This document shows, one piece after another, positions 2,155-18,416 of a stretch of DNA of 25,605 nt. Source of the stretch: a virus; IMG/VR virus record IMGVR_UViG_3300036886_000009, positions 1 to 25,605 of that record; one strand, 5' to 3'. Position numbers and translations under genes: made by a program. The number at the start of each line of letters is the position of its first letter. Position 1 is the stretch's first letter. Below the pieces are notes generated by a model. That model did not search any database and had not been told where the DNA came from. It saw nothing but the letters and a program-made list of their open reading frames with translations.

Positions 2155-2396
2155 CAATACATATTCTTTGTACAATTTGTGGACAACAAAGAGAACAAGA
2201 AGGAGCCATTGCTGTTGGCTATTCTCGAGATGGAAAATACATGGACTTGTTTGTTTTGATGTGTAATGAATGTAAGCAGAAAACAATTGCTGGAGATTGG
2301 GAATATAAAAATAAACAAGTTCGAGATTATATACAAATTTGTGAACAAGAAAAGACTGGAGGAAAAGAAAATGGCATTACTCAGCGACCTGCTTAA
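2151..2396 (+). CDS. Small zinc-ribbon-like protein
   Basis: An 81-residue protein of unknown function. It carries two CxxC pairs, C7-x2-C10 (CTIC) and C38-x2-C41 (CNEC), spaced as in a small zinc ribbon or knuckle. The C-terminus is polar and may be unstructured. ATG 2151 overlaps the large-terminase stop by four bases (ATGA), and this start removes a longer upstream reading that lies inside the terminase gene. Its last 26 bases overlap the start of the next gene, including that gene's GGAGG ribosome binding site. Position next to terminase suggests a packaging or nucleic-acid-binding accessory, but the sequence alone does not show this. Confidence 0.7.
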   Translation: MTIHILCTICGQQREQEGAIAVGYSRDGKYMDLFVLMCNECKQKTIAGDWEYKNKQVRDYIQICEQEKTGGKENGITQRPA

Positions 2397-4170
2397 GGAT
2401 GATGTAAAGAAAAGTCTGTATGCCATGACGAAAGATGGTAAGCGGATGACAAGAGATGATAAGTTTGATGAGACCCAAGTAGGGGCTGCAAAGAAAGAAG
2501 GAGCAAAGGCTGCTAGTGACGGAGAGAAAATAACCAGTAATCCTTATCCAAAAGATTCTACAGCTTATTCAGCTTGGAATCAAGGATTTAAAGGAATCAA
2601 GGATGCTGAAGATGAGTCGGATATCTTTACTGAAGATGGTCCTCCTGATTATTATGCAGCTATTGTTTCTGTTGCACGACAGGCTGACAATCCTAGAGCT
2701 AACAAAGAATATTTGAGAAAGAATATTGAGCCGATCTTTAAGGCCAGAGGAGTGCCGTTTGAAAGTGATAAGTTTGAAGCTGAGTATAAACGATTCAGCC
2801 AGGCAAGAATGGGCAGAGAATATGAGAAGAGTAAGGATGCAGCAGAAGAATTTCGGGAAGGAGAAAAGGTAAAGATTAATTATGGAGAACATTCAGGAAA
2901 GACGGGTACGTTTGTTGAATATTCTCCATCTGGATCGTTCGCCATTGTCAAAGTTGCTGGAAACAACGTTGGATATGATACTTCTAATTTGAAAAAGATA
3001 GGAAAGTATCATGATGCAGAGTCTAACTGCACCTGTGAAGAAAACATGGAAGACATGAAGCGAGCATGGTATTGCCCGCAGCACGGACATAGAACTCTTA
3101 CTAGCAGTGAAATGATTTTAAAAAGAACCAGTGATGCATCTTATGTGAATGCCTATAGAGTTAGAGATGGAAAGAATGATACAGCGAAAGAAAGAATCGA
3201 ATCTTTGAAGAGGCAATTGAAGCAGGCAATCCAAGCAGGAGATAGTGAAGAGGTAAAAGAATTAAAGGAAGCTCTTCAGGAAGCAGAGGAGCAGTATAAG
3301 AGAGATACTACGGAGGATGATGGTGGATTTACTCTTGCTGGATTAAAACATGAATTGCAGAGACACACAAAGAATTTAAAATACTATGAGGACAATCCGG
3401 AGAAGACCCTGTCTGGTGCGAATAGAAGCCAGACAATGAAAGAGCTCAAGGGAAATGTTGCTCAGGTTCAAAAGATGATTGACAACTTTGATAAGACAAA
3501 GGACGACTGGTCTCCAGAAGCAAGAGAGGCAGCAGCTGAAGCTAGAAGAAGGAATGCAAAGAATAAACCTGACGATCAGCCTAAAGCTAAATCAGAAGTA
3601 AAGTCTAAACGTCCGAAAACTATGGCTGAGGCTCTTCAAGACATGGATATTAAAATGTATTCCCCAAAGGGAGAGGCTGGAGAAAAAATTAGAAAAAAAT
3701 TATGGGAAACTCTAAATGCTCCGCACAATACACCAGGAACGAAAGAGTATGAAGAATCAATGAAAGAACTAGCTTTAACAATTAAAGCCAGAGAAGAGAA
3801 AGAAAGAGAAAAAAAGAGAGAAAAAAATAAATCAAAAGATTCAGATCTGATGGCGCAATCCTTATTCAATCAAATTAAAAGAGAAGGGGATCTTGAAGAT
3901 GCAAGAGAGCAGGATGCAGAGGATTTCATGTCTGCTTATCCAGGCCTAAGCAAAGGGGAAGCTCAGAAGTTATACAATCTGGTGCAGCAATGGGCACATG
4001 ACTCAGCGAATCCAAGATTGCAAATCAATCCCAACTTGATAAAGGATATAGCCAGAGAGAATGGGTATAACGATATAAATGATAAGGATGTCAAAAGAGC
4101 TCACGACTTCGCAAGCAAGTACAACGATCCACAGGATTACTTAGATGCTATAAAGGAATTCTTCAGCTAA
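2371..4170 (+). CDS. Tagged KOW-domain, coiled-coil phage protein
   Basis: A 599-residue hydrophilic protein of unknown function. ATG 2371 sits 8 nt after GGAGG (2358-2362). The N-terminus (MALLSDLLKD, then SLYAMTKDG) is a copy of the tag shared with the proteins at 4238, 5841, 7334 and 14147. Next come a NPYPKDSTAYSAWNQGF segment, a motif of the type seen in ribosome-modulation-factor-like phage domains, and a KOW/SH3-like segment (GEKVKINYGEHSGKTGTF). A small Cys/His cluster follows (CTCEENMEDMKRAWYCPQHGH is split over about 20 residues as C-x-C, then CPQHGH). The second half is charged coiled coil rich in Lys, Glu and Arg. No enzyme motif is visible. A virion-internal or nucleic-acid-associated role is possible from the tag and KOW domain, as inference only. 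Confidence 0.8.
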   Translation: MALLSDLLKDDVKKSLYAMTKDGKRMTRDDKFDETQVGAAKKEGAKAASDGEKITSNPYPKDSTAYSAWNQGFKGIKDAEDESDIFTEDGPPDYYAAIVSVARQADNPRANKEYLRKNIEPIFKARGVPFESDKFEAEYKRFSQARMGREYEKSKDAAEEFREGEKVKINYGEHSGKTGTFVEYSPSGSFAIVKVAGNNVGYDTSNLKKIGKYHDAESNCTCEENMEDMKRAWYCPQHGHRTLTSSEMILKRTSDASYVNAYRVRDGKNDTAKERIESLKRQLKQAIQAGDSEEVKELKEALQEAEEQYKRDTTEDDGGFTLAGLKHELQRHTKNLKYYEDNPEKTLSGANRSQTMKELKGNVAQVQKMIDNFDKTKDDWSPEAREAAAEARRRNAKNKPDDQPKAKSEVKSKRPKTMAEALQDMDIKMYSPKGEAGEKIRKKLWETLNAPHNTPGTKEYEESMKELALTIKAREEKEREKKREKNKSKDSDLMAQSLFNQIKREGDLEDAREQDAEDFMSAYPGLSKGEAQKLYNLVQQWAHDSANPRLQINPNLIKDIARENGYNDINDKDVKRAHDFASKYNDPQDYLDAIKEFFS

Positions 4171-4237: not shown

Positions 4238-5599
4238 ATGTTACTATCAGAACTGCTCAAAGATAAGAAAGATTCATTATACCTGCTGACTAAGGATGCA
4301 GGTAACTTCAAGGAAGAGGAACATCCGAGAGGGCAACCTGCAAATGCAGGTCAATTCGCTAAAGGAGCAGGCTCAGCTAAGAAAGCAGAACCACAAGAAG
4401 GAGAAGAGGCAAGAAAGGGAGGCGGCAAATTCTTAGGGACAATGCAGGAGATGATCAGGAACAAGGAATCAGATGAGGCTATTAAGAAAGCATTTACGCA
4501 GATGTTCAAAGAGAAGGGAGTAACAGATCCTGCATTCATTGCTAAACGTATCGAGTTTTATAAGAAGCTGACAAAGAAATTCCCAGGAGGAGAACCCCCT
4601 AAGAAGACAGAGCCAGTAGTAGAACCAAAGAAGACGGAAGAGCCAAAGCCGACTGCTACTAAGACAGGTAAGAAATTCGATGCTAAGAAGTTCAGAGAGA
4701 AGTATCAGAGTGACCTGAAGTCTTATGATAAGGAAGCAAAGCCATACAAAGATCAAATGGCTGAGATCAATACAGAGATGATTAATATAAGGATGAAGCT
4801 GGTTGATACTAACAACAGTGCTGGGGTTGGTGTATGGAAACAGCTTGAATCAAACGAGAGATACCAGAAGTTGAAATTTGACTATCATGATGCTAAGGAT
4901 GAGCTTGATCATATTAGATTCCAGCAAAGACATTTGTTTAGAGAGATGATGTTCCAGCCAACTACTAACCAGAAAATTCCAGTAGCAGAAATAACTGGAG
5001 GAAGTGGTCCAGCATCTGAGAGAAAGGAAGCAAAGAAGTGGGCAGAAGATACGCTTAGTGATTTGTTTGCTCACATTGATTCATCTGCATTAGATAGGAC
5101 AGGCTGGCATAATAGTGAGACTAGAAGAGTGTCTATTAATTATTACCCTGGTACTATGGGTAGGGCATGTTTTAATTATGGTAGATCAGATGGTGGAGAG
5201 ATTACTCTTCATAAAAAGGGGAAAGATGATTTAATCCATGAGTTCGGGCATTGGATTGAATGGAACAATGCAGCAGCAAAGAGAGCAGTGGTTCGATTCA
5301 AAGCAAGAAGGACAGGTGAAGAGAAAGCTAGGCCTCTTAACTCAATAAAGAATAGCAGCTGCTATGATGATCATGAAATTGCAAAGCCTGACAAGTTCTT
5401 CAATGCTTATGTGGGAAAGATATATCCCAATGGCAGCACTGAGATCTTATCTATGGGACTAGAAGAGATTATGGCAAGACCAGCAGAATTCGCAAAGAAA
5501 GACCCTGAGCATTTCGAGTTGATATGTGAGATTATGCAGGGCGTGTATCCTGGAGAAGATAAAAAGTTAGAAGCTGTTCCAGATTATGAGGAGATCTAA
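4238..5599 (+). CDS. Tagged HEXXH zinc metalloprotease
   Basis: A 453-residue protein with three parts. The N-terminal tag reads [20 protein letters not shown]. Just after it, EHPRGQPANAGQF and a Gly/Ser/Ala stretch form a linker. The middle is Lys/Glu-rich coiled coil with Pro-Lys-Thr repeats. The C-terminal domain has H334-E-F-G-H338 preceded by DDLI and followed by WIEW, the signature of a zinc metallopeptidase. E402 in the segment STEILSMG is a good candidate third zinc ligand, as in gluzincin-type phage peptidases. The substrate is unknown. Possible roles are processing of virion proteins or cleavage of a host protein after injection; the shared tag favours a virion-carried enzyme (inference). 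A 67-nt gap precedes it and its ribosome binding site is weak (GAGAAG). Confidence 0.8.
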   Translation: MLLSELLKDKKDSLYLLTKDAGNFKEEEHPRGQPANAGQFAKGAGSAKKAEPQEGEEARKGGGKFLGTMQEMIRNKESDEAIKKAFTQMFKEKGVTDPAFIAKRIEFYKKLTKKFPGGEPPKKTEPVVEPKKTEEPKPTATKTGKKFDAKKFREKYQSDLKSYDKEAKPYKDQMAEINTEMINIRMKLVDTNNSAGVGVWKQLESNERYQKLKFDYHDAKDELDHIRFQQRHLFREMMFQPTTNQKIPVAEITGGSGPASERKEAKKWAEDTLSDLFAHIDSSALDRTGWHNSETRRVSINYYPGTMGRACFNYGRSDGGEITLHKKGKDDLIHEFGHWIEWNNAAAKRAVVRFKARRTGEEKARPLNSIKNSSCYDDHEIAKPDKFFNAYVGKIYPNGSTEILSMGLEEIMARPAEFAKKDPEHFELICEIMQGVYPGEDKKLEAVPDYEEI

Positions 5600-5841
5600 T
5601 GGCAACGAAGATTGAAGTTTATGGAGTAGAGGCAGAATGGACTGAAGAAGGTCTGTGGACTTCTAGTCATGAAGAGCTGACCTTTATTCTGAATATGAAT
5701 CAAGAACAGAATCAGCTACCCTCTGGTGCGAATCCATGGCCTGCTGGAGTTGCTGTTGAGATAGCTAAAGATATTTTTCCAGATCTAAAGATTATAGAGC
5801 AAGAAGACAAACCAGAATTCGACAAGAAGGTTACATACTAA
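5599..5841 (+). CDS. Small acidic phage protein
   Basis: An 80-residue protein I do not recognise. It overlaps the preceding gene by one base (TAATG), and GGAG lies a few bases upstream. The composition is acidic and contains a segment with several Trp and Pro residues (GANPWPAGVAVEIAKDIFPDL) that looks folded rather than disordered. There is no signal peptide, membrane segment or metal-binding motif. Its stop overlaps the start of the acetyltransferase-like gene in the same way, so it is translated as part of the accessory operon between terminase and portal. Confidence 0.65.
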   Translation: MATKIEVYGVEAEWTEEGLWTSSHEELTFILNMNQEQNQLPSGANPWPAGVAVEIAKDIFPDLKIIEQEDKPEFDKKVTY

Positions 5842-6584
5842 TGCTGCTATTTGATTTGTTAAAGGGAGAGCCCGGTAGTTTATTTCTGAGCACTGTAGAT
5901 GCAGCTGCTTTCGTGGAGTCTGAGCATCCAAGGGAGCAGACAGGGAAATTCACAGCTGGAGCAGGGAGCAATAAAGGACCTAGCAGTGAAACTAGAAGCG
6001 AATCTAGTAACGAGGGCAGAGCAGACGTGATAACTAAAGGGTATGACACTCCGGAAGCCAAGAAGGCCATTGAAGGAATATTCAATGGAGTAGAGAAAGC
6101 GAAGATTGAAATCAAGGCTTCTGACATTCATCCCAAGCATGAGTTCTCAGTCAACACTACAGGAGCTGGATTCAAATCAACTCTTACTGTGGATAGGAAG
6201 GCTAAAGACATATTCGTAGATGAGGTCCATATTTCACGGACAAAGCAAGGAAGAGACATAGGCAAGAATATGATTCACAACATGATTGCCTTTGCAAAGA
6301 AAGAAGGAATGCAGACGATCAGCTTGTGGGCTGCTGAGAAGGTCGGCATATATGCTTGGGCCAAACTCGGATTCGACTATGATCAGCCTACAGGATTGCA
6401 AGATGCAAAGGCTTCTCTGAAGATCTACTGCAAAGATAACGGCATAAAGTTAGGGAAAGAAGATTTGAATAAACTAAAGACAGCAAAGGATGTAGCAAGT
6501 CTTACAATCAATGATGAGACGGTGGGAAAGAATTTCATGCTGTCAGGAAGTCACGGAAGTTGGACAGGAGTGTTAAAGATATGA
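5841..6584 (+). CDS. Tagged GNAT-family acetyltransferase
   Basis: A 247-residue protein combining the shared tag with a GNAT fold. Residues 1-24 (MLLFDLLKG, SLFLSTVDA) are the tag. EHPREQTGKF followed by TAGAGS is a shortened version of the EHPRGQPxNAGQF linker. The enzymatic part, about residues 95-185, contains the acetyl-CoA pyrophosphate-binding motif Q136-G-R-D-I-G141 followed by a long helix, then SLWAAEKVGIYAWAKLGF, the usual late GNAT motif with Y171. The acceptor is unknown; phage GNATs can modify host proteins or toxins. Presence of the tag argues that it is carried in the particle (inference). Start ATG 5841 overlaps the upstream stop. Confidence 0.8.
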   Translation: MLLFDLLKGEPGSLFLSTVDAAAFVESEHPREQTGKFTAGAGSNKGPSSETRSESSNEGRADVITKGYDTPEAKKAIEGIFNGVEKAKIEIKASDIHPKHEFSVNTTGAGFKSTLTVDRKAKDIFVDEVHISRTKQGRDIGKNMIHNMIAFAKKEGMQTISLWAAEKVGIYAWAKLGFDYDQPTGLQDAKASLKIYCKDNGIKLGKEDLNKLKTAKDVASLTINDETVGKNFMLSGSHGSWTGVLKI

Positions 6585-6745
6585 GTCAAGAAATCCCGAT
6601 CATAAGCGCTAAGGGTTCTGCAGGCGGCAATGACGACACCTTCTTCTGGGAAGAGCTGCTAGCAGATGACAACAAAGATTTCACAGAAGAATATTTGGGG
6701 ATAAAGGCAGATGACCAAGTTCGACCTACAGAAGATACTTCGTAG
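6581..6745 (+). CDS. Small acidic protein
   Basis: A 54-residue acidic protein of unknown function. ATG 6581 overlaps the stop of the acetyltransferase gene (ATGA), with AGGAG at 6566-6570. It is rich in Asp and Glu in its second half (ADDNKDFTEEYLGIKADD). Its last 35 bases overlap the start of the methyltransferase gene in another frame. Overlaps on both sides support a real gene, but no homology is recognised. Confidence 0.5.
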   Translation: MSQEIPIISAKGSAGGNDDTFFWEELLADDNKDFTEEYLGIKADDQVRPTEDTS

Positions 6746-7334
6746 CGATTTGACAAGGCTGACAAGAATGTATTCGCTTGAGCCTTTTCAAAAGCTATCA
6801 ACACCAGAGATAGGGTGCCTGATCAACTTGCTGGTGGAGGTCATACCTTACTCTGCTTGTTACCTGAATATAGGAACTGGAGCAGGCTATTCATTAGTAG
6901 CAGGTGCTGCATGGAATTCAGAGAAGATGTGTATAGGAGTAGATAATTGGAGCGAGATGCAGGAATCAAAATACCTGCATGACAGAATCTATCCTTATAA
7001 GAATGTCCGCTTCTATGAAATGGATTACAAGGAATACTTCAAGCAACACATACTGCCTATAGGCCTTTACTATTATGATGCTGACCATTCTGCTGAGGCC
7101 ACCTATGAAGGCTTATCCCTGGCAGTTCCTTTTATGTATGAAGGATCGCAGATACTTATTGACGATTGGAATTGGGAAATGGTAAGAGACGGAGCATTTG
7201 AATTCTTAAAAGCTAATCCTGAATACTCAATCATCTACGAGGAATTCACAGAGGTGCCTGTTGAAGATACAAGTGAGAAGATGCATCGCTTATGTGAGAT
7301 GTATAATGGGATTTGCATCATGAGGAGAAACTGA
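6711..7334 (+). CDS. SAM-dependent methyltransferase (Methyltransf_24-like)
   Basis: A 207-residue class I methyltransferase-like protein. YLNIGTGAGYSLVAG is motif I, the S-adenosylmethionine-binding Gly-rich loop. CIGVDNW is the acidic end of the second strand, and YYYDADHSAEATYEGL with ILIDDWNW matches the later strands of the Methyltransf_24 family, in which D-x-D-H and DDW are characteristic. Members often act on sugars or other small molecules, so a DNA target should not be assumed. It lacks the N-terminal tag found in neighbouring enzymes. Start ATG 6711 lies inside the previous gene with a weak AAAGG site; ATG codons further in are alternatives. Confidence 0.75.
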   Translation: MTKFDLQKILRSDLTRLTRMYSLEPFQKLSTPEIGCLINLLVEVIPYSACYLNIGTGAGYSLVAGAAWNSEKMCIGVDNWSEMQESKYLHDRIYPYKNVRFYEMDYKEYFKQHILPIGLYYYDADHSAEATYEGLSLAVPFMYEGSQILIDDWNWEMVRDGAFEFLKANPEYSIIYEEFTEVPVEDTSEKMHRLCEMYNGICIMRRN

Positions 7335-7783
7335 TGCTGCTTGCTGATAAATTAAAAGACCATAAGGATAGCCTGTTCATGCAGACGAAGGATGCCGCCA
7401 GATACATAATCAACTTCCAAGGCATGACCATTGGCATTGAGAATCCTGAAGGCTCAACAAGAGAAGGAGAACATGAAGATGGCACTAAATGGAAACAGAC
7501 TTACTTTCATGCTTATGGATTTATCATAGGTACGAAAGGAGCGGACGGCGAGGAGATCGATTGTTTTATTGGCCCGAATGAGAATGCTGAGAAGGTATAC
7601 ATCATCCACCAGCAGATTGCCGATGAGTATGATGAAGACAAGGTCATGCTTGGCTTCGATTCGAAAGAACATGCCCGAGATGCTTATCTGGGACACTTCG
7701 ATACTCAGAGCTTTCTGGGCCCGATCACTGAAATGGATGTAGAAGAATTCAAAGACAAAATATATGGGAGGAATGAAAGATGA
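7334..7783 (+). CDS. Tagged inorganic-pyrophosphatase-like protein
   Basis: A 149-residue protein. The N-terminus (MLLADKLKDHKDSLFMQTKD) is the shared tag, and the remainder matches the phage inorganic-pyrophosphatase-like domain (InPase). Recognisable elements are IENPEGSTREG, then YGFIIGTKGADGEEIDCFIGPN, in which DGEEID corresponds to the metal-binding DxDPxD region of soluble pyrophosphatases, and DEDKVMLGFDSKEHARDAY. Activity on pyrophosphate is family-based inference; such domains in phage polyvalent proteins may act on other phosphorylated substrates. There is no EHPRGQP linker here; the tag runs straight into the domain. Start ATG 7334 (TGATG overlap) follows AGGAG at 7323-7327 with a 6-nt gap, which rules out the longer upstream reading. 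Confidence 0.8.
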   Translation: MLLADKLKDHKDSLFMQTKDAARYIINFQGMTIGIENPEGSTREGEHEDGTKWKQTYFHAYGFIIGTKGADGEEIDCFIGPNENAEKVYIIHQQIADEYDEDKVMLGFDSKEHARDAYLGHFDTQSFLGPITEMDVEEFKDKIYGRNER

Positions 7784-9882: not shown

Positions 9883-10007
9883 ATCTGCATGAATACATGG
9901 AATCATATTTAAGGTGGCAACAGAATTATCTAAATTTCTGCAATACTTTTTGGAGTATGTATTTGCAGAGAGTCAATGAAAGAATTAAGGAGATGACTAA
10001 TGGCTAA
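9879..10007 (+). CDS. Very small aromatic-rich protein
   Basis: A 42-residue protein between the small membrane protein and the portal. ATG 9879 overlaps the preceding stop by four bases, and its end overlaps the first eight bases of the portal gene. It is rich in Tyr, Trp, Phe, Asn and Gln (SYLRWQQNYLNFCNTFWSMY) and is probably helical. The portal ribosome binding site (AAGGAG, 9987-9992) lies inside it. Coding is supported by the overlaps only. Confidence 0.4.
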   Translation: MNLHEYMESYLRWQQNYLNFCNTFWSMYLQRVNERIKEMTNG

Positions 10008-12594
10008 GAAGATTTCAAAGGCTCTTGTCCCGATGATACCAGAGAGAAAAGGAAAGCTGACTATTGATCAACAAACTCTAGACAGCTTTATGAATGTGGC
10101 GGCTAAGCTTGGAATACAAGCTGAGAATTTAAGCAGCCAGGGATATTATGCGCTAGGCCCATTCATCACGCGCAATAGGATTGAACTTGAAGCTGCTTAT
10201 AGATCTAGCTGGCTGGTTGGTCAAGTGGTGGACTGCATTGCTGAGGACATGACTCGAGATGGAATCAATATACGCTCAGAACTCAAGCCTGACGATATCC
10301 AGAAGATACAAGTTGGATTCAGTGAGTTTGGAATATGGCACGACATCTCTATGGCAATCAAATGGGGAAGGTTATACGGAGGAGCAATAGCAGTCATCTT
10401 AATTGACGGAGCGAAGTATGATACTCCTTTGAATATAGAAGCCGTTGGAAAAGGAAAATTCAAAGGTCTTGTTATACTTGATCGTTGGATGGTGCAGCCT
10501 ACAATGGGAGACTTGATTACTGACATTGGTAAAGATCTGGGTAAGCCTAAATTTTATCAGGTGCTAGGAACATCAACTTCATTCCAGGGAGAGAAGATAC
10601 ATCATACCCGCTGTATGCGCTTCGATGGAATTGAGCTTCCTTATTATCAGAAGTTGTTTGAGAATCTTTGGGGCATGTCAGTTGTCGAGAGAATGCTAGA
10701 TCGTCTTATGGCATTTGATAGCGCTACTCAGGGAGCAGCTCAGCTTTTATATAAGGCCTACCTGCGTGTTATTAAAGTAAAGGGATTCAGGGAAGCGCTG
10801 TCTTTAGGAGGAACAAAAGAAGCAGCAGTCATTAAATGGTTCCAGTATATCCGGTTGATGCAGACGAACGAGGGAATCACAACGCTTGATGCAGAAGATG
10901 ATTTTGCAGTCCATCCATATTCTTTCGGGGGCATATCTGATATGCTGATTCAATTCGGTCAGCAGATTTCAGGAGCTACTGGAATTCCTCTTGTAAGATT
11001 ATTCGGTCAATCTCCTACAGGACTTAATTCTTCTGGAGAGTCAGATCTTAGAAATTACTATGATCATATAAACAAGCTGCAAGAGAATCAATTGAGACCT
11101 CAACTTGACAAGTTGCTAGCAGTCATGTCTATGTCAATACTTGGACATGAGCTTCCTGAAGATTTAGAGTTTGATTTCATTCCCCTGTGGCAATTGTCTG
11201 AGACAGAGAAGGCAGAGATTGCATCTACAGATTCTGACAATGTAGCAAAGCGTCATGAGGAAGGACTGATTAAAAAGTCTACGGCTTTAAAGGAGCTGTT
11301 GATTAGCAGCAGGATTACAGGAAGGTTCACAACAATAACTGAAGATGATATTAAGGATGCAGAAGAAGAAGATGCAGCTCCTCCTGCTCTTGTTCCTGGT
11401 ATGCCTGGAGCACCAGCACCGCCTGCAGGCGGAGGAGAACATAAACCTGAAGAACCTGATTCTGCAAATGAGAGGCTGGGCGGATCAAATCCAGAAAATA
11501 CAAAAGAAGGTGAAGGAAAAGATCCGATAGATAAAAACTATAAAGGAACAGATGCTCCTCCAAAGAAGAAATCTATTAAGGATAGTGTAGTGGATTTCTT
11601 TCGAGATGTATTTAAAGAATCTGAACATCCAAGGGGGCAACCTGGAAACGCTGGACAGTTTGGCCCAGGCGGAGGATCAAAATCCTCGTCTAGTTCAAAA
11701 AGTGAGGGAGAAGGTGAATCGTCTCGTCCCCGGAAAGAAAGCGAAACTAGAGGCAACAAGAAGGACAAAGTTCAGCTTGTTTCGACAAAAGTCGTAGGAG
11801 AAAAGCATATGGCAGCGAATGGTAAGCCTCTTCCGCCTCATGTTGCTTCTAAGAGGATTCCTCCAGGATGGACAAATGTGCAATACAATCCTGATCCAAA
11901 AGGCGAGCTTTTGATTATGGGATATGATAAGAAGGGTCGTCCACAAAGATTATATTCTGCTGCTCACTGGGAAAAGGCGGATGCAGAGAAATTTTCTCGA
12001 GTAGATGATTTGAATACTAACTATAATAAAGTTAAGAATGAAAATTTGAAGAATATGAAAGGACCGCAATCAGAAGCAGCAACTGTTCTGGGATTGATTA
12101 TGGATACAGGGATACGCCCGGGCGGAGAAGAAGGCTCAGGGGATTTCGCTGCCTATGGAGCAACTACTCTCGAGGGAAGACATATAAAGGTTAATGGAAA
12201 TAATGTAGTTTTAGAATTTGTTAGTGGGAAGTCGAAGGGAAAGACTAAGACAATACCTGTTACAGATCCCTCTGTAGCCAAGACTCTTATCGAAAGGTCT
12301 AAGAACGTTAAGAAAGATGAACAGATATTCTCTGTTGATGAATTCGGGTTGTTGAAGTATACAAAGTCTCTTGACGGACAGAAGTATATTACAAAAGACT
12401 TCCGGACACTGATTGGGACGAAGACAGGCATGACTGCAATGAAAGATGTAGAGAAGCCTACAGATATGAAGTCGTACAAGAAGGCTTGTATGAAAGTTGC
12501 AAAAGTAGTTGCTGAGAAATTGGGAAACACTCCTAAGATGGCATTGAAGTCTTATATCAATCCAGTGATATTCGCTGATTGGAGGATCGACTAA
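10000..12594 (+). CDS. Portal protein fused to a topoisomerase IB domain
   Basis: An 864-residue protein with two functional parts in one uninterrupted frame. Residues 1 to about 450 are a DUF1073-type portal, the dodecameric ring through which DNA enters the head (LVGQVVDCIAEDMTRDGI, GLNSSGESDLRNYYDHI). A Pro/Gly-rich linker follows (about 455-540), then E542-HPRGQPGNAGQF554 and a Ser-rich spacer. From about 590 on it matches DNA topoisomerase IB: KRIPPGWTNV at 618-627, R706 in GIRPGGEE, K744 in SGKSKG, R802 in DFRT, N843 in LGNTP and the nucleophile candidate Y852 in SYINP. The R-K-R-N-Y set and the 9-residue N-to-Y spacing equal those of bacterial enzymes such as the Deinococcus one. AAGGAG lies 7 nt before ATG 10000. 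The topoisomerase might relax DNA during packaging or ejection, or be cut free as cargo (inference). Confidence 0.9.
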   Translation: MAKKISKALVPMIPERKGKLTIDQQTLDSFMNVAAKLGIQAENLSSQGYYALGPFITRNRIELEAAYRSSWLVGQVVDCIAEDMTRDGINIRSELKPDDIQKIQVGFSEFGIWHDISMAIKWGRLYGGAIAVILIDGAKYDTPLNIEAVGKGKFKGLVILDRWMVQPTMGDLITDIGKDLGKPKFYQVLGTSTSFQGEKIHHTRCMRFDGIELPYYQKLFENLWGMSVVERMLDRLMAFDSATQGAAQLLYKAYLRVIKVKGFREALSLGGTKEAAVIKWFQYIRLMQTNEGITTLDAEDDFAVHPYSFGGISDMLIQFGQQISGATGIPLVRLFGQSPTGLNSSGESDLRNYYDHINKLQENQLRPQLDKLLAVMSMSILGHELPEDLEFDFIPLWQLSETEKAEIASTDSDNVAKRHEEGLIKKSTALKELLISSRITGRFTTITEDDIKDAEEEDAAPPALVPGMPGAPAPPAGGGEHKPEEPDSANERLGGSNPENTKEGEGKDPIDKNYKGTDAPPKKKSIKDSVVDFFRDVFKESEHPRGQPGNAGQFGPGGGSKSSSSSKSEGEGESSRPRKESETRGNKKDKVQLVSTKVVGEKHMAANGKPLPPHVASKRIPPGWTNVQYNPDPKGELLIMGYDKKGRPQRLYSAAHWEKADAEKFSRVDDLNTNYNKVKNENLKNMKGPQSEAATVLGLIMDTGIRPGGEEGSGDFAAYGATTLEGRHIKVNGNNVVLEFVSGKSKGKTKTIPVTDPSVAKTLIERSKNVKKDEQIFSVDEFGLLKYTKSLDGQKYITKDFRTLIGTKTGMTAMKDVEKPTDMKSYKKACMKVAKVVAEKLGNTPKMALKSYINPVIFADWRID

Positions 12595-13109: not shown

Positions 13110-13274
13110 ATGGCAGAAGAATGGAGAGAAGGTCATGATAAATTCAGTAAGGCTAAACAGAGACGGCTTGCAAGGAACCGTGAAATTTTGATTAAAAAAA
13201 ATGTGGGTTATATTGCTCCTGTCCCAAGTAATAGTTATAAAGAAGGTTGGGAAAGAATCTGGGGGAAGAAGTGA
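13110..13274 (+). CDS. Small basic protein
   Basis: A 54-residue basic protein (KAKQRRLARNREILIKK). ATG 13110 is fixed by AAGGAG at 13099-13104; the longer reading starting at 13053 would overlap most of the previous gene and has no ribosome binding site. The stop overlaps the GTG start of the head morphogenesis gene. Composition suggests DNA, RNA or acidic-protein binding. Function is unknown. Confidence 0.6.
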   Translation: MAEEWREGHDKFSKAKQRRLARNREILIKKNVGYIAPVPSNSYKEGWERIWGKK

Positions 13275-14050
13275 CATATACATTAGATGCCCCAAAGAAT
13301 AAACCTGTTCCTATTAAGATAAAGTCAAAGGACTCTCCATTCCAGAAGTCTAAGAATATCCAGATGGGATATGAACGAGCGCTGCGTGGAGTAGCAAAGG
13401 AAGTTGGAAAGCTGATCAGGGGGTATGACCCTAAGGACTTGCTGTCTGTTGAAAGATTGAAGAGGGCGCTATACAGTTATTCAGATTTGATCGAGCCGTG
13501 GGCTAGAAAGTTAGCAGGTAAAGTAGTTGTGAGTCTTGACTATCAAGATAAGAATGCCTGGAGAAAACATACACAGAAGATGTCAGTTGCAATGCGACTT
13601 GAGTTGTTGAATACCCCTACAGGAGATGAACTACGTCAGCTTCTTGAAGACAATGTAGCTCTGATTACATCTCTACCCATAGAGGCAGCTCAGCGAGTTC
13701 ACGAATTAGTTACAGAGAGTCTAGCGACGAGTATTCGAGCAAGTGAGATTGCTACTAAGATAATGAAGACAGAAGATATAACAAAGAACAGGGCAACAAT
13801 GATTGCCAGGACAGAAGTAGCGAGGGCTTCTAGCTTATTGACTCAAGTAAGGGCAACAAATATAGGATCTGATTCTTATATTTGGAGGACTGCTAATGAC
13901 AGGATAGTCAGAGAGTCACATCGCAAGATGAATGGAAGACAAGTTAAGTGGGCAGTAGCTCCTACTTTGATAGACGGAACAACAACGCATGCAGGGCAGA
14001 TATACAACTGTAGATGTTATCCAGAACCGATTATTTCTGATCTGGAATAA
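13271..14050 (+). CDS. Head morphogenesis protein (MuF / SPP1 gp7 family)
   Basis: A 259-residue minor head protein of the Mu gpF/SPP1 gp7 family, usually associated with the portal and present in few copies in the capsid. The conserved C-terminal domain is clear: NRATMIARTEVARASSL, then IWRTANDRIVRESHRKMNG and GQIYNCRCYPEP with its paired Cys. The N-terminal half is helical. Its place after the portal is standard. I chose GTG 13271, which overlaps the upstream stop as GTGA and follows GGGGGAAG closely; a TTG at 13247 would add 8 residues but has poor spacing. The gene ends an operon-like block, since a 96-nt gap with regulatory elements follows. Confidence 0.9.
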   Translation: MTYTLDAPKNKPVPIKIKSKDSPFQKSKNIQMGYERALRGVAKEVGKLIRGYDPKDLLSVERLKRALYSYSDLIEPWARKLAGKVVVSLDYQDKNAWRKHTQKMSVAMRLELLNTPTGDELRQLLEDNVALITSLPIEAAQRVHELVTESLATSIRASEIATKIMKTEDITKNRATMIARTEVARASSLLTQVRATNIGSDSYIWRTANDRIVRESHRKMNGRQVKWAVAPTLIDGTTTHAGQIYNCRCYPEPIISDLE

Positions 14051-14116: not shown

Positions 14117-14146
14117 GACTTGCTTCAGAAAACAACGGAGGATGCT

Positions 14147-15220
14147 ATGTTACTAAGTGAGTTGCTCAAAAGTTCAAAAAATTCCAAGTACATGAAAACT
14201 AAAGATGCTTCTACTGTAAGGACTATTGATTCTAGCAATTATAGTTGGGAGCATTGGGATCATGACCCTTCTTCAGGAAAATATAGTAATGAATATAAGG
14301 TAACTCATTATAAAGGATATAGAATTGTAGAATCTATCGCTGATGCTGGTATGGGATATGTAGTGATGGAAGGAAGTGGTAAACGAGGCATTGATGATGA
14401 ATTCGATTCTATGTCTGATGCAAAGAAAGTTATTGATGAACTGACAGGAACAAAAGATGCCAAGACAGAATGGTTTGTCATGGAAGAGATAACAGGTAAG
14501 ATTCTTAGTAAAGGATTCACATCTGAATCTGAAGCAGAAAAAGAAATGGCAAAGCTTCTTGCAAAAGGAAAAACAAATATCTATGTTGAAGAAGAATATG
14601 CAAGAGACTCCAAGACTGGGGACGCTACACCTCTTTGGAAACTTCAAGAAGATTTGAGGGATGCTAAAAATAAAGCAGAAAGAGACGCTATACAGAAAGA
14701 AATAAATAAAGAATTGGAGAAGATTGCCAAAGAGAATTTAAAGACTGGTGATGATCGTTATACTCAGCAGGATATAGCAGTATTGAAAAGAAGTATCCAG
14801 CAACAGAAAGAAGTGTTAGAAACAGAACTTGATCCTAAGATGAAAAAGAAAAGAGAAGGCTGGATCAAAGAATGGGAAGAAGAGATTAAAGGATTAAAAG
14901 CTAAAGACTCATACACTGGCGATCCTCTCGAACAAGGCTCCTCCAAAGAAGCAATCTCAAAGAACATCGCTATTGAACGCAATGCTGGCAAACCTGAAAA
15001 ACAAGCGATTGCCATTGCCATGAGTGAGGCGGGCAAGAGCAAGGATGACAGTGGAGTAAAGACTTCCTATTATAAAAGTTTTGAAATCAACGAAAGTCCT
15101 CATGGTTGTATTGTTATTGGGAGTGGAGATAAGAGAACTCTTTATCAGGGCAAGAATACTGAGCAGGTAAAAAAGGAAATTGATAAAGATATCACATCAG
15201 GTAAATATGATAAGAGGTAG
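14147..15220 (+). CDS. Tagged phage protein with repeated small modules
   Basis: A 357-residue protein of unknown function. It begins with the shared tag (MLLSELLK, then [10 protein letters not shown]). Two or three related segments follow: [20 protein letters not shown] with a downstream [30 protein letters not shown]; and near the C-terminus [20 protein letters not shown] with [10 protein letters not shown]. These look like diverged copies of one small alpha/beta unit. A coiled-coil middle (about 160-235) precedes a segment of the form [34 protein letters not shown], a motif common in phage structural-region proteins. ATG 14147 lies 5 nt after GGAGG (14137-14141). It is the first gene of the block that leads into the protease and capsid genes. 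Confidence 0.75.
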
Positions 15221-15223
15221 TTG

Positions 15224-16864
15224 ATGCCAGAAAAAATGAGATTCTATGTTGAGGAGCAATTAAGTGAGCATATGGCTGAGACGCCAGAAGGGTTTCTGCT
15301 TTGCTTAGGAGTTCCGATTACTCGGACAGGCGAATTTCTTTATAAGGCAAACGAAGTCCCAGTAGAAGCAGATCGCTCTGGGATGATTACGATCAAGCGC
15401 TTTGAAGAAGATGTGTTTGATGAAAAGGCTATGAAGAGTTTTGAAGGAAAGCCTGTTACGATCAATCACCCTTCTGGTTTTGTTGGTCCTGAGAATTGGG
15501 CAGGACTTGCTCATGGTCATTTGCAGAATGTCCGTAGGGGAGATAGAGAACAAAAGGATATGTTAGTTGCGGACATGCTCATTACGACTGCTGAGGCAAT
15601 TGAGCTTGTCAAGTCGGGGTTACGAGAAGTCTCATGCGGATATGATGCAGAGTATGAGCAGTTGGAAGAAGGAGTAGGGAAGCAAAAGGACATAGTTGGG
15701 AATCATGTCGCGTTAGTTATGAAAGGGAGGGCTGGTTCTCGGTGTGCAATCGGAGACACGGGTAAAATCTGTGACGGTTGTGGAAATTGCAGTTGTGGAA
15801 AAGAAAATAATGTAGAGGAGGTTAACATGGGAATTAAAGAGTTAAAAAAGAAATTGCGGGTTTGGATTGACTCTATGCCTACCGCAGATCAGGATCTTGA
15901 GGACAATCCCAAGGCAAATCGGGAAGACGCCAAGATTCGAAAAGAGTCGGCTGACAAGAAGGGCAAAGCCAAAGATGATGAGGAAGAAACTGGTACGGAT
16001 ATCGAGAAGAAGAAAAAAGGTGAATCCGAAGATACTGGCGAAGCAGCTGCTATGGTTGCAGAGGCAAAGACTGGCGCCGCTCTTACTGTCAAAGATGATG
16101 ACGATGAGGAAGATAATAAAGACCTCAAAGAAGATGAGAAAGGCAAGGGTCTGAAAGCCAAAGACAAAAAGGCTAAGGACAAAGATGAAGATGAAGATGA
16201 AGATGAAGATGAAGAAACAATTGATGCAGAAGATCCAGCTGCTGTTAAAAAACTGAAGAACGATGTTGAAAAGGCTGCTATTCTTGCTCTTGACAATGAT
16301 GGGGATGACGATGAAGATGACAAGAAGGATTTGAAGGAACAGGTCAAAGATCTTCGTCGGGCTATTAAAGACATGGCCGCTTCTCAGAAGAAGTTCCAAG
16401 ATGGTGTTGCCAAGGTTATTAAGGATGCAGAAGCAGCAGAGGAAGCAGAAGCAGAGAAAGAGACGAAGGAAAAGAATGAGACTGCTGACTGTGATGCTAC
16501 CTGGAATGAAACTGCTCATGCAGCGGAGATCCTGTTCCCAGGGATGCATCTCCGGAAGCCTACCAAAGATCATGGCTCAAGAATGCGAGAGATTAAGATT
16601 ACTGCATTGCGAGGGGCCTCGCTTCGTCCTGATAGTAAAGATGTTGTTGAAAAGATTGTCAAGGGCAGAGCATTCAGCAAAATGACAAACGATGCTCTGG
16701 ATGTGGCCTTCACCGGTGCTGCCGAGTTATTGTCAGCATTGAACAACGGAAAGGTCGGTAGAGGTTCTATTGCCATCGAGACGAAGGATTTCGGTTCGCT
16801 GTCGAAAATCCAGGAGATCGAAAAGGCCAATAAGAAGTTCTATAAAACGCATGGACATGTGTAA
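15224..16864 (+). CDS. Prohead protease-scaffold fusion (DUF2213)
   Basis: A 546-residue protein. Residues 1 to about 180 form a DUF2213 prohead protease domain: H82 in TINHP and S137 in REVSCGYDAEY are the likely catalytic His and Ser, in the order seen in prohead proteases of the herpesvirus-assemblin type. A Cys cluster (C183, C186, C189, C191) marks the domain boundary. The remainder is a very acidic, Lys/Glu/Asp-rich scaffold (about 202-430) with a folded C-terminal segment (about 430-546), which probably binds the capsid shell. The protease should remove scaffold and trim head proteins during maturation. ATG 15224 follows AAGAGG at 15212-15217. A TTG at 15221 is less likely. Confidence 0.85.
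   Translation: MPEKMRFYVEEQLSEHMAETPEGFLLCLGVPITRTGEFLYKANEVPVEADRSGMITIKRFEEDVFDEKAMKSFEGKPVTINHPSGFVGPENWAGLAHGHLQNVRRGDREQKDMLVADMLITTAEAIELVKSGLREVSCGYDAEYEQLEEGVGKQKDIVGNHVALVMKGRAGSRCAIGDTGKICDGCGNCSCGKENNVEEVNMGIKELKKKLRVWIDSMPTADQDLEDNPKANREDAKIRKESADKKGKAKDDEEETGTDIEKKKKGESEDTGEAAAMVAEAKTGAALTVKDDDDEEDNKDLKEDEKGKGLKAKDKKAKDKDEDEDEDEDEETIDAEDPAAVKKLKNDVEKAAILALDNDGDDDEDDKKDLKEQVKDLRRAIKDMAASQKKFQDGVAKVIKDAEAAEEAEAEKETKEKNETADCDATWNETAHAAEILFPGMHLRKPTKDHGSRMREIKITALRGASLRPDSKDVVEKIVKGRAFSKMTNDALDVAFTGAAELLSALNNGKVGRGSIAIETKDFGSLSKIQEIEKANKKFYKTHGHV
15816..15829 (+). promoter_or_regulatory. Internal ribosome binding site for scaffold
   Basis: AGGAGGT at 15816-15822 lies 5 nt before ATG 15827, inside and in frame with the protease-scaffold gene. 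It is among the best ribosome binding sites in the window and falls exactly at the boundary between protease and scaffold domains, so it is unlikely to be accidental. Confidence 0.7.
15827..16864 (+). CDS. Scaffold protein from internal in-frame start
   Basis: Probable separate scaffold product of 345 residues, made from an internal ATG in the protease-scaffold gene and sharing its C-terminus. It begins MGIKELKKKLRVWIDSMP right after the Cys cluster that closes the protease domain. Making many scaffold copies relative to protease by an internal start is known for lambda C/Nu3 and related phages. The product is acidic coiled coil, with a run of Glu/Asp encoded by the repeat at 16184-16213 and a more ordered C-terminal 115 residues. 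Existence as a separate protein is inferred from the ribosome binding site and domain boundary. Confidence 0.65.
   Translation: MGIKELKKKLRVWIDSMPTADQDLEDNPKANREDAKIRKESADKKGKAKDDEEETGTDIEKKKKGESEDTGEAAAMVAEAKTGAALTVKDDDDEEDNKDLKEDEKGKGLKAKDKKAKDKDEDEDEDEDEETIDAEDPAAVKKLKNDVEKAAILALDNDGDDDEDDKKDLKEQVKDLRRAIKDMAASQKKFQDGVAKVIKDAEAAEEAEAEKETKEKNETADCDATWNETAHAAEILFPGMHLRKPTKDHGSRMREIKITALRGASLRPDSKDVVEKIVKGRAFSKMTNDALDVAFTGAAELLSALNNGKVGRGSIAIETKDFGSLSKIQEIEKANKKFYKTHGHV
16184..16213 (+). repeat. (GATGAA)5 hexanucleotide repeat
   Basis: Five exact tandem GATGAA units encode alternating Asp-Glu in the scaffold. As a six-base unit it can gain or lose copies without shifting frame, so it would vary acidic-tract length rather than switch the gene off. 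Confidence 0.85.
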
Positions 16865-17429: not shown

Positions 17430-18416
17430 ATGAATGGTATGATGACATTTGATAGAATGACTCTTGACAGCACCGGTGCATTTCTGGTTGGTGAACTCGA
17501 GAGACTCGACCAAAAGCTTCATGAGCCTTTGGTTGCTGTAACATGGGGAAGGGATATCGATCTGCGTGAAGACGTTTCCATTGCTGATGAGTCTTCGTCT
17601 TTTACGAACAGCACCTTCGCCGCTGCTGGTGGTATTAACTCCAGTGGTAAAAATTTCATCGGCAAGAACACCAATGCAATTCCAGGCGTTGGGCTGGACA
17701 TTGGTAAAACTGTTAGCCCCTTGTATCTCTGGGGTTCTGAAATTTCCTACACCATTCCGGAACTGCTTTCCGCCCAGCAGCTTGGTCGCCCGGTCGACGA
17801 GCAGAAGTTCGCAGGCATGCAGTTGAAATGGCAGATGGACATTGACGAGATGGTCTACATTGGCGACTCTGGTATGGCTAAATACGGTCTTGTCAATTCG
17901 GTCGCAGCAGTTACTACAGGTTTCGTTGCTGCTGGTGCTCTGACCTTTACGGCGTGGACGAAGAAGACCCCAGCTGAGATTCTGGCTGATGTTAATGCCC
18001 TGATCAACTCCTGCTGGTCAGCTGCTGGCTTTGCAATTTGCCCCAGCAAGCTTCTTCTGCCTCCGGCGCAGTTTGCATACCTGGTGTCTCAGGTTGTTTC
18101 TACTGCCGGTAATATCTCGATCTTGAAGTTCCTGCAGGACAACTGCATCAGCAACAGCATCAATGGTAAGCCTCTGGACATTCAGCCCTGCAAGTGGTTG
18201 ACTGGTCGTGGCGCTAATGCAGGTTCTCCGTCTACGGCAACTGACCGCATGATGGTTTATACCCAGGACAAGATCCGGGTGCGGTATCCTCTGGTTCCTC
18301 TGCAGAGAACTCCGCTTGAGTACCGTTCTATTTATCACATGACGACTTACTTCGGTCGCCTTGGTGTTCTGGAATGGGTGTATCCCGAAACGGCGTACTA
18401 CGCTGATGGTATCTAA
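17430..18416 (+). CDS. Major capsid protein (DUF2184, HK97 fold)
   Basis: The major head subunit, 328 residues, of the DUF2184 family, a branch of the HK97 fold. Supporting segments include DRMTLDSTGAFLVGELERLD near the N-terminus, WGSEISYTIPELLSAQQLG, then MQLKWQMDIDEMVYIGDS and the C-terminal YHMTTYFGRLGVLEWVYPET. The order after protease/scaffold and cement genes is typical. AAGGAGG at 17414-17420 precedes ATG 17430 with 9-nt spacing. Codon use is noticeably more GC-rich than in most other genes here, as expected for the most highly made protein. No tag or obvious N-terminal propeptide is visible. Confidence 0.9.
   Translation: MNGMMTFDRMTLDSTGAFLVGELERLDQKLHEPLVAVTWGRDIDLREDVSIADESSSFTNSTFAAAGGINSSGKNFIGKNTNAIPGVGLDIGKTVSPLYLWGSEISYTIPELLSAQQLGRPVDEQKFAGMQLKWQMDIDEMVYIGDSGMAKYGLVNSVAAVTTGFVAAGALTFTAWTKKTPAEILADVNALINSCWSAAGFAICPSKLLLPPAQFAYLVSQVVSTAGNISILKFLQDNCISNSINGKPLDIQPCKWLTGRGANAGSPSTATDRMMVYTQDKIRVRYPLVPLQRTPLEYRSIYHMTTYFGRLGVLEWVYPETAYYADGI

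Follow-up and report, generated by a model that had tools for sequence, protein, structure and literature searches.

Portal proteins that carry an additional enzyme at their C-terminus have been described for several tailed phages. Gp19 of the Pbunavirus phages Pa193 and E217 and the BcepF1.124 protein consist, like the gene product analysed here, of a DUF1073-related portal followed by an enzyme (PMC11042391, PMC10329688, PMC5512222). In E217 the C-terminal barrel of the portal reaches into the head, and of the 765 portal residues the model includes 97-528; for the Pa193 portal density was reported absent for residues 529-765 (PMC11042391, PMC10329688). The missing density may equally reflect a tether that is flexible, a cleavage or a loss. 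Fusions of portal and MuF proteins to InPase, PBECR and 2H domains belong to the 'polyvalent proteins' (Iyer et al. 2017, PMC5512222); effector-like domains on head proteins of portal-terminase phages are proposed there to be packaged and injected, and InPase is described as virion cargo and as a portal fusion. A search of the main text of the same paper did not show TopIB as a fusion partner; its one match to 'topoisomerase' is a reference title. TopIB enzymes themselves are encoded by tailed phages of the jumbo type (Motura, RSL1, Lu11 and PaBG), where they are separate non-portal genes described together with functions in DNA recombination and topology (PMC7824862).

The window of the present study, a stretch of 25,605 nucleotides that comprises positions 1 to 25,605 of the metagenomic virus record IMGVR_UViG_3300036886_000009, encodes a portal with a complete-looking TopIB domain (Table 1). 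In Pa193, E217 and BcepF1.124 the portal-borne enzyme is an InPase; the window has its InPase as a gene of its own and TopIB on the portal. As in the polyvalent proteins, an enzyme is attached to a head protein and different domains are exchanged at the same position among relatives.

Table 1 Features of the portal-TopIB gene and of neighbouring genes in the window.
Feature	Coordinates	Strand	Basis
Portal-TopIB fusion gene, 864 aa	10000..12594	+	Open frame that matches both PF06381 and PF01028
Portal domain, about residues 60-460	10177..11379	+	PF06381; model aligns with Pam3 portal 8hds
Flexible linker, residues 463-590	11386..11769	+	pLDDT <50 at 463-524 and 544-590, full-length model
HPR box HPRGQPGNAGQF, residues 543-554	11626..11661	+	Motif recurs at other junctions and ahead of solo phage TopIBs
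TopIB domain, about residues 594-864; R706, K744, R802, N843, Y852	11779..12591	+	PF01028, Foldseek, VIA, residue check
Internal ATG (M604), possible start of free TopIB	11809..11811	+	AGGAG 7 bases upstream
Gene of unknown function, shared leader within frame from about residue 37	2266..4170	+	
Putative cargo gene, leader, HPR box, HEFGH motif (zinc-peptidase-like by eye)	4238..5599	+	phrog_33618, minor head protein family
Putative cargo gene, leader, HPR box, weak GNAT match	5841..6584	+	PF00583 E 0.006, below cut-off
Stand-alone InPase with shared leader; relative fused to Pa193 portal	7313..7783	+	PF18823 E 1.3e-40
MuF-type head morphogenesis protein	13247..14050	+	PF04233 E 1e-15
Gene of unknown function, shared leader	14120..15220	+	
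DUF2213 protein, matches head maturation protease families	15221..16864	+	PF09979 E 8.9e-46; phrog_530 E 3.5e-46
Major capsid protein	17430..18416	+	PF09950 E 1.3e-74

The initial annotation had described an uninterrupted frame of 864 codons with a DUF1073-type portal first and a TopIB-like region last, and both parts of this description proved correct. The start codon is preceded by a Shine-Dalgarno-like TAAGGAG, and PF06381 matches residues 62-416 with an E-value of 9.7e-113, spanning positions 2-356 of the 357 profile positions. Among solved structures the first part of the protein matches portals (Pam3, E 1.5e-35). The portal part of an AlphaFold2 model of the full-length protein aligns with the Pam3 portal 8hds over 401 residues (Z 26.1, rmsd 6.2), and a comparison of the window model with the Pa193 portal gave Z 24.8. 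The gene is placed where a portal gene would be sought, between those for the terminase (290-2154) and for the MuF (13247) and capsid (17430) proteins. In the full-length model the portal and the TopIB domain (594-864) are both well predicted and most of residues 463-590 are of low confidence; this model was calculated for the monomer only, and its low pTM of 0.44 does not fix the placement of the portal relative to TopIB.

The C-terminal region matches PF01028 (Topoisom_I) at residues 658-846 with E 8.3e-18 and 65 bits, compared to a cut-off of 23.7. PF21338, the N-terminal domain of bacterial TopIB, gave a partial match at residues 619-643 (19.1 bits, below the 27-bit cut-off), and the N-terminal strands of the domain are present in the AlphaFold2 model. 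The proposed active site residues R706, K744, R802, N843 and Y852 were confirmed in the sequence, as was the IPPGWTNV signature, which begins at residue 620. The alignment with Deinococcus TopIB (2f4q) is free of gaps from R802 to Y852, and the spacings of 41 residues (R to N) and 9 residues (N to Y) are therefore equal to those of that enzyme, as the initial annotation had stated. The last part of the protein matches TopIBs among solved structures (Deinococcus, variola, 6z01, vaccinia), and with Deinococcus-type (2f4q, 3m4a) and poxvirus enzymes (2h7f, 1a41) it shares the R-K-R-N/H-Y pattern, the fold and the N-terminal IPP segment. It differs from them by a sequence identity of only 24-25%, by its attachment to a portal and by the position of the phage domains apart from the cellular enzymes.

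Since the catalytic fold is common to TopIBs and tyrosine recombinases, and recombinases do appear lower in the fold list, the domain might instead be a tyrosine recombinase or a resolvase with a function in joining or resolving the ends of the genome. We modelled residues 601-864 alone from an alignment of ten rows (mean pLDDT 86.7) and searched with this model by Foldseek. At a threshold of E 0.001 or better the 22 strongest matches were all TopIBs, with E-values of 1.5e-5 or better and down to 3.8e-11, whereas the first tyrosine recombinase followed at E 0.016. VIA-align gave Z-scores of about 15 to 19.5 with TopIBs (for 2h7f Z 19.4, rmsd 4.0 over 257 residues) and below 14 with recombinases; the C-terminal part of the full-length model reached Z 18.9 with Deinococcus TopIB. 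A recombinase identity is thus highly improbable and is rejected on the basis of the profile, of the TopIB pattern and Deinococcus spacings of the active site, and of the fold ranking.

The initial annotation had allowed that the fusion may exist in databases. This held for further contigs, in which four other distinct DUF1073 portals with a TopIB were found (L006, L017/L018, L037 and L040), but not for annotated phage records, which contained none. L006, detected by a scan with the full protein, is a second complete fusion that is 51% identical overall and 44% identical in the TopIB part; L017/L018, L037 and L040 were added by profile scans. L017 and L018 code for identical proteins from two metagenomes, L040 is devoid of the N-terminal part of the TopIB domain, and in L016 TopIB is joined to a portal of another family, Portal_Mu (PF06074). 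A scan of viral contigs with the TopIB part as a single sequence yielded no relatives, but a two-row profile did find them. In annotated phage records the full protein matched 1894 entries via its portal half, none of them covering 80%, and the TopIB half gave seven distant matches. Matches of TopIB in plasmids were about 30% identical, comparable to those of cellular TopIBs. Being a metagenomic virus record that may be incomplete, the window could in principle contain a portal gene and a TopIB gene that were wrongly joined during assembly. The fusion was however found in other, independent contigs, one of them with an identical protein in two metagenomes, and GC3 is 0.376 in both the portal and the TopIB part; a misjoined assembly is therefore extremely unlikely and is in practice ruled out by the recurrence.

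TopIB genes related to the fused domain also occur alone, in clusters of head genes. One solo gene (L013) follows MuF and another (L014/L015) follows a PF04860 portal-MuF protein; a third (L077) starts where a DUF1073 portal gene has its stop codon, and a fourth (L094) is located downstream of a PF06381 portal on a contig that belongs by assignment to a gammaproteobacterial MAG. In the latter, the portal and the TopIB gene are separated by an ORF (L094:3962-5764) with a weak match to an intein splicing domain (PF14890, E 3e-5, below cut-off). Ten aligned TopIB rows with 30-47% identity are invariant in the columns of the two catalytic arginines, the asparagine and the tyrosine, and the catalytic lysine is also kept in all ten once the conserved G-K is aligned by eye.

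In a TopIB tree of 41 rows (midpoint-rooted for display only, with several long branches and unsure details) a branch (94/85) separates the phage domains and two genome-contig relatives from the TopIBs of cells and of jumbo phages, the jumbo-phage enzymes being far from the window group. Fused and solo forms are intermingled in this tree. A portal tree of 71 rows required four changes of the fused state, and the count was still four when rows cut by contig ends were left uncounted. These observations are more in line with a cassette that was repeatedly gained, lost or swapped than with a single inherited fusion. In a Xanthomonas jumbo phage (L012:4107-6110) an annotated topoisomerase gene is located near the gene of a head-tail connector, from which four genes separate it.

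The same portal position accommodates other domains. Most of 85 related portal frames stop 40-120 residues past the portal, and the long ones include the TopIB fusions. A DUF1073 portal of 1133 residues (L004:2789-6187) has an HPR box and numerous pentapeptide repeats, and it weakly matches an ADP-ribosyltransferase (DRAT); a link of these repeats to gyrase would be speculation. A NUDIX domain is fused to the portal in L068:1971-4040 and in L070, and the 765-residue portal Pa193 gp19 (9b41_L) has an InPase at residues 637-750 that matches the window InPase with E 7.3e-24. In the same slot relatives of the window portal thus exchange TopIB, pentapeptide repeats with an ART-like domain, NUDIX, or no domain at all. 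The portal of L005:1240-3768 has a long C-terminal extension with short repeats of the SLEGCPKEVGGDF type, which gave no Pfam match above the cut-off.

The linker contains a short motif that recurs at such junctions. An HPR...G..F box precedes the cargo in six of six fusions, in the solo forms L013, L077 and L094 and in the portal of L004; it reads HPRGQPENAGQFGPGGG in L094 and HPRGQPGNAGQFGPGGG in the window, although the two portals are no more than remote relatives. In L014/L015 another segment, GSGRHPEG, is present, and the box was found in no TopIB frame among the 77 loci L097-L173. From the sequences we infer that the HPR box travels with the cassette, and it may represent a cleavage or targeting site. 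Release of the enzyme by a protease, with a cut near residue 542, had been suggested initially; the model provides a linker in which cleavage could occur, with the HPR box at the guessed spot. The linker peptide matched no Pfam family, and tblastn against annotated phages was empty, a weak result for so short a query. The linker also contains a TDA tripeptide that is similar to the final residues of the leaders described below but is too short for use.

Five otherwise unrelated genes of the window (2266, 4238, 5841, 7313 and 14120) have an N-terminal leader in common that ends with T-x-D-A/G/S and is also present in L017/L018. When each gene was sought with a model built from the other four, E-values of 1.5e-4 (2266), 3e-8 (4238), 0.017 (5841), 4e-8 (7313) and 3.6e-6 (14120) were obtained; none of the leader peptides matched a Pfam family. 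The leader may direct proteins to the head and include a site for a protease, and the DUF2213 protein is, by its family matches, a candidate to cut leaders or linker. The arrangement resembles that of T4, in which internal proteins enter the head via removable leaders (PMC9026906), in that short N-terminal leaders are found on several unrelated proteins and a head-protease-like gene is present. This likeness is one of arrangement, and the window TopIB is attached to the portal and has no such leader; by analogy the leaders could serve for head entry and be removed as in T4. The solo TopIB of L013 starts with MLLSEFLK, a leader similar to that on adjacent genes, and has an HPR box, and TopIB therefore occurs both on a portal and behind a short leader. 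A methyltransferase-like gene (6711-7334; PF13578, E 7e-10) is situated amid the cargo-like genes.

We consider it probable that TopIB is a virion cargo that acts on DNA; the exact moment of its action is less sure. The presence of TopIB on two kinds of portal or standing alone suggests a cargo that is loaded into the head, and because solo TopIB genes exist and unrelated domains are found in the slot, the portal looks like a carrier. This reading is further supported by the retained catalytic residues, by the leader-bearing InPase gene, and by the shared leader on five genes in a cluster with a head-protease-like gene. Delivery with the genome is a good option, perhaps as a cargo of the polyvalent kind that is held by the portal inside the head and co-delivered for relaxing the incoming DNA. 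The portal part would join the ring at the head vertex, and its C-terminus would lead via the flexible linker with the HPR box to TopIB. By analogy to the E217 portal, the enzyme would be located inside the head on a flexible tether, with up to about twelve copies per virion when the DNA leaves. It would then most likely act early in infection, either on its tether or after cleavage and ejection together with the DNA, and remove supercoils that arise from transcription and replication of the incoming genome. Packaging, release, activity and a role after entry are presumed in this model. Poxviruses are a precedent for a TopIB packaged in virions. The truncated domain of L040 speaks against the cargo reading. 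The need for a phage TopIB is moreover not obvious, because host RNA polymerase and host topoisomerases could serve early transcription.

Other roles have to be weighed against a delivered cargo. The initial annotation had envisaged an enzyme working at the DNA entry channel. A portal with a complete TopIB is indeed present, but the job at the channel is less supported in view of the solo genes beside portal or MuF and of the unrelated domains in the slot. A swivel for packaging and ejection would relax DNA torsion at the inner portal mouth with no delivery into the cell; TopIB is joined to the very ring through which DNA passes, the C-terminal barrel of E217 contacts DNA and faces the head, and ATP, without which TopIB works, would not be needed. 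Such a swivel appears rather unlikely, as several TopIBs are unattached to a portal (L013, L014, L077 and L094), non-topological domains occur in the same slot and most related portals have no such extension at all. An in-place ring of up to twelve TopIBs that relieves torsion during packing or exit is likewise improbable; if true, topology control would be built into some phage packaging motors.

An attack on the host, in which the delivered TopIB disturbs chromosome topology or counters a topology-based defence, is unlikely too. It would be in line with neighbouring or slot domains (InPase, GNAT, ADP-ribosyltransferase) of classes that are proposed as conflict effectors in PMC5512222, but TopIB merely relaxes DNA and few copies would have to compete with the gyrase of a whole cell. 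The internal ATG at residue 604, which coincides with the domain boundary and has an AGGAG at a good distance upstream, could finally mean that TopIB is made mainly as a free protein and that the fusion is incidental. This is quite improbable, since a comparable start at the TopIB boundary is absent from the other fusions and the in-frame fusion is recurrent and has a conserved HPR box.

Fusions of portals with enzymes are known, and TopIB as the fused enzyme is apparently unreported: a search of main texts, mostly of open-access papers, found no report of TopIB with phage portals, which does not prove priority. With the present fusion a topoisomerase joins the apparent portal-borne enzymes of phages, and one and the same enzyme is seen to move among two families of portals and a stand-alone gene. 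The system thus offers a handle on the question whether C-terminal portal cargo enters the cell, and on whether phages have to control the topology of DNA while it is packaged or just after infection begins.
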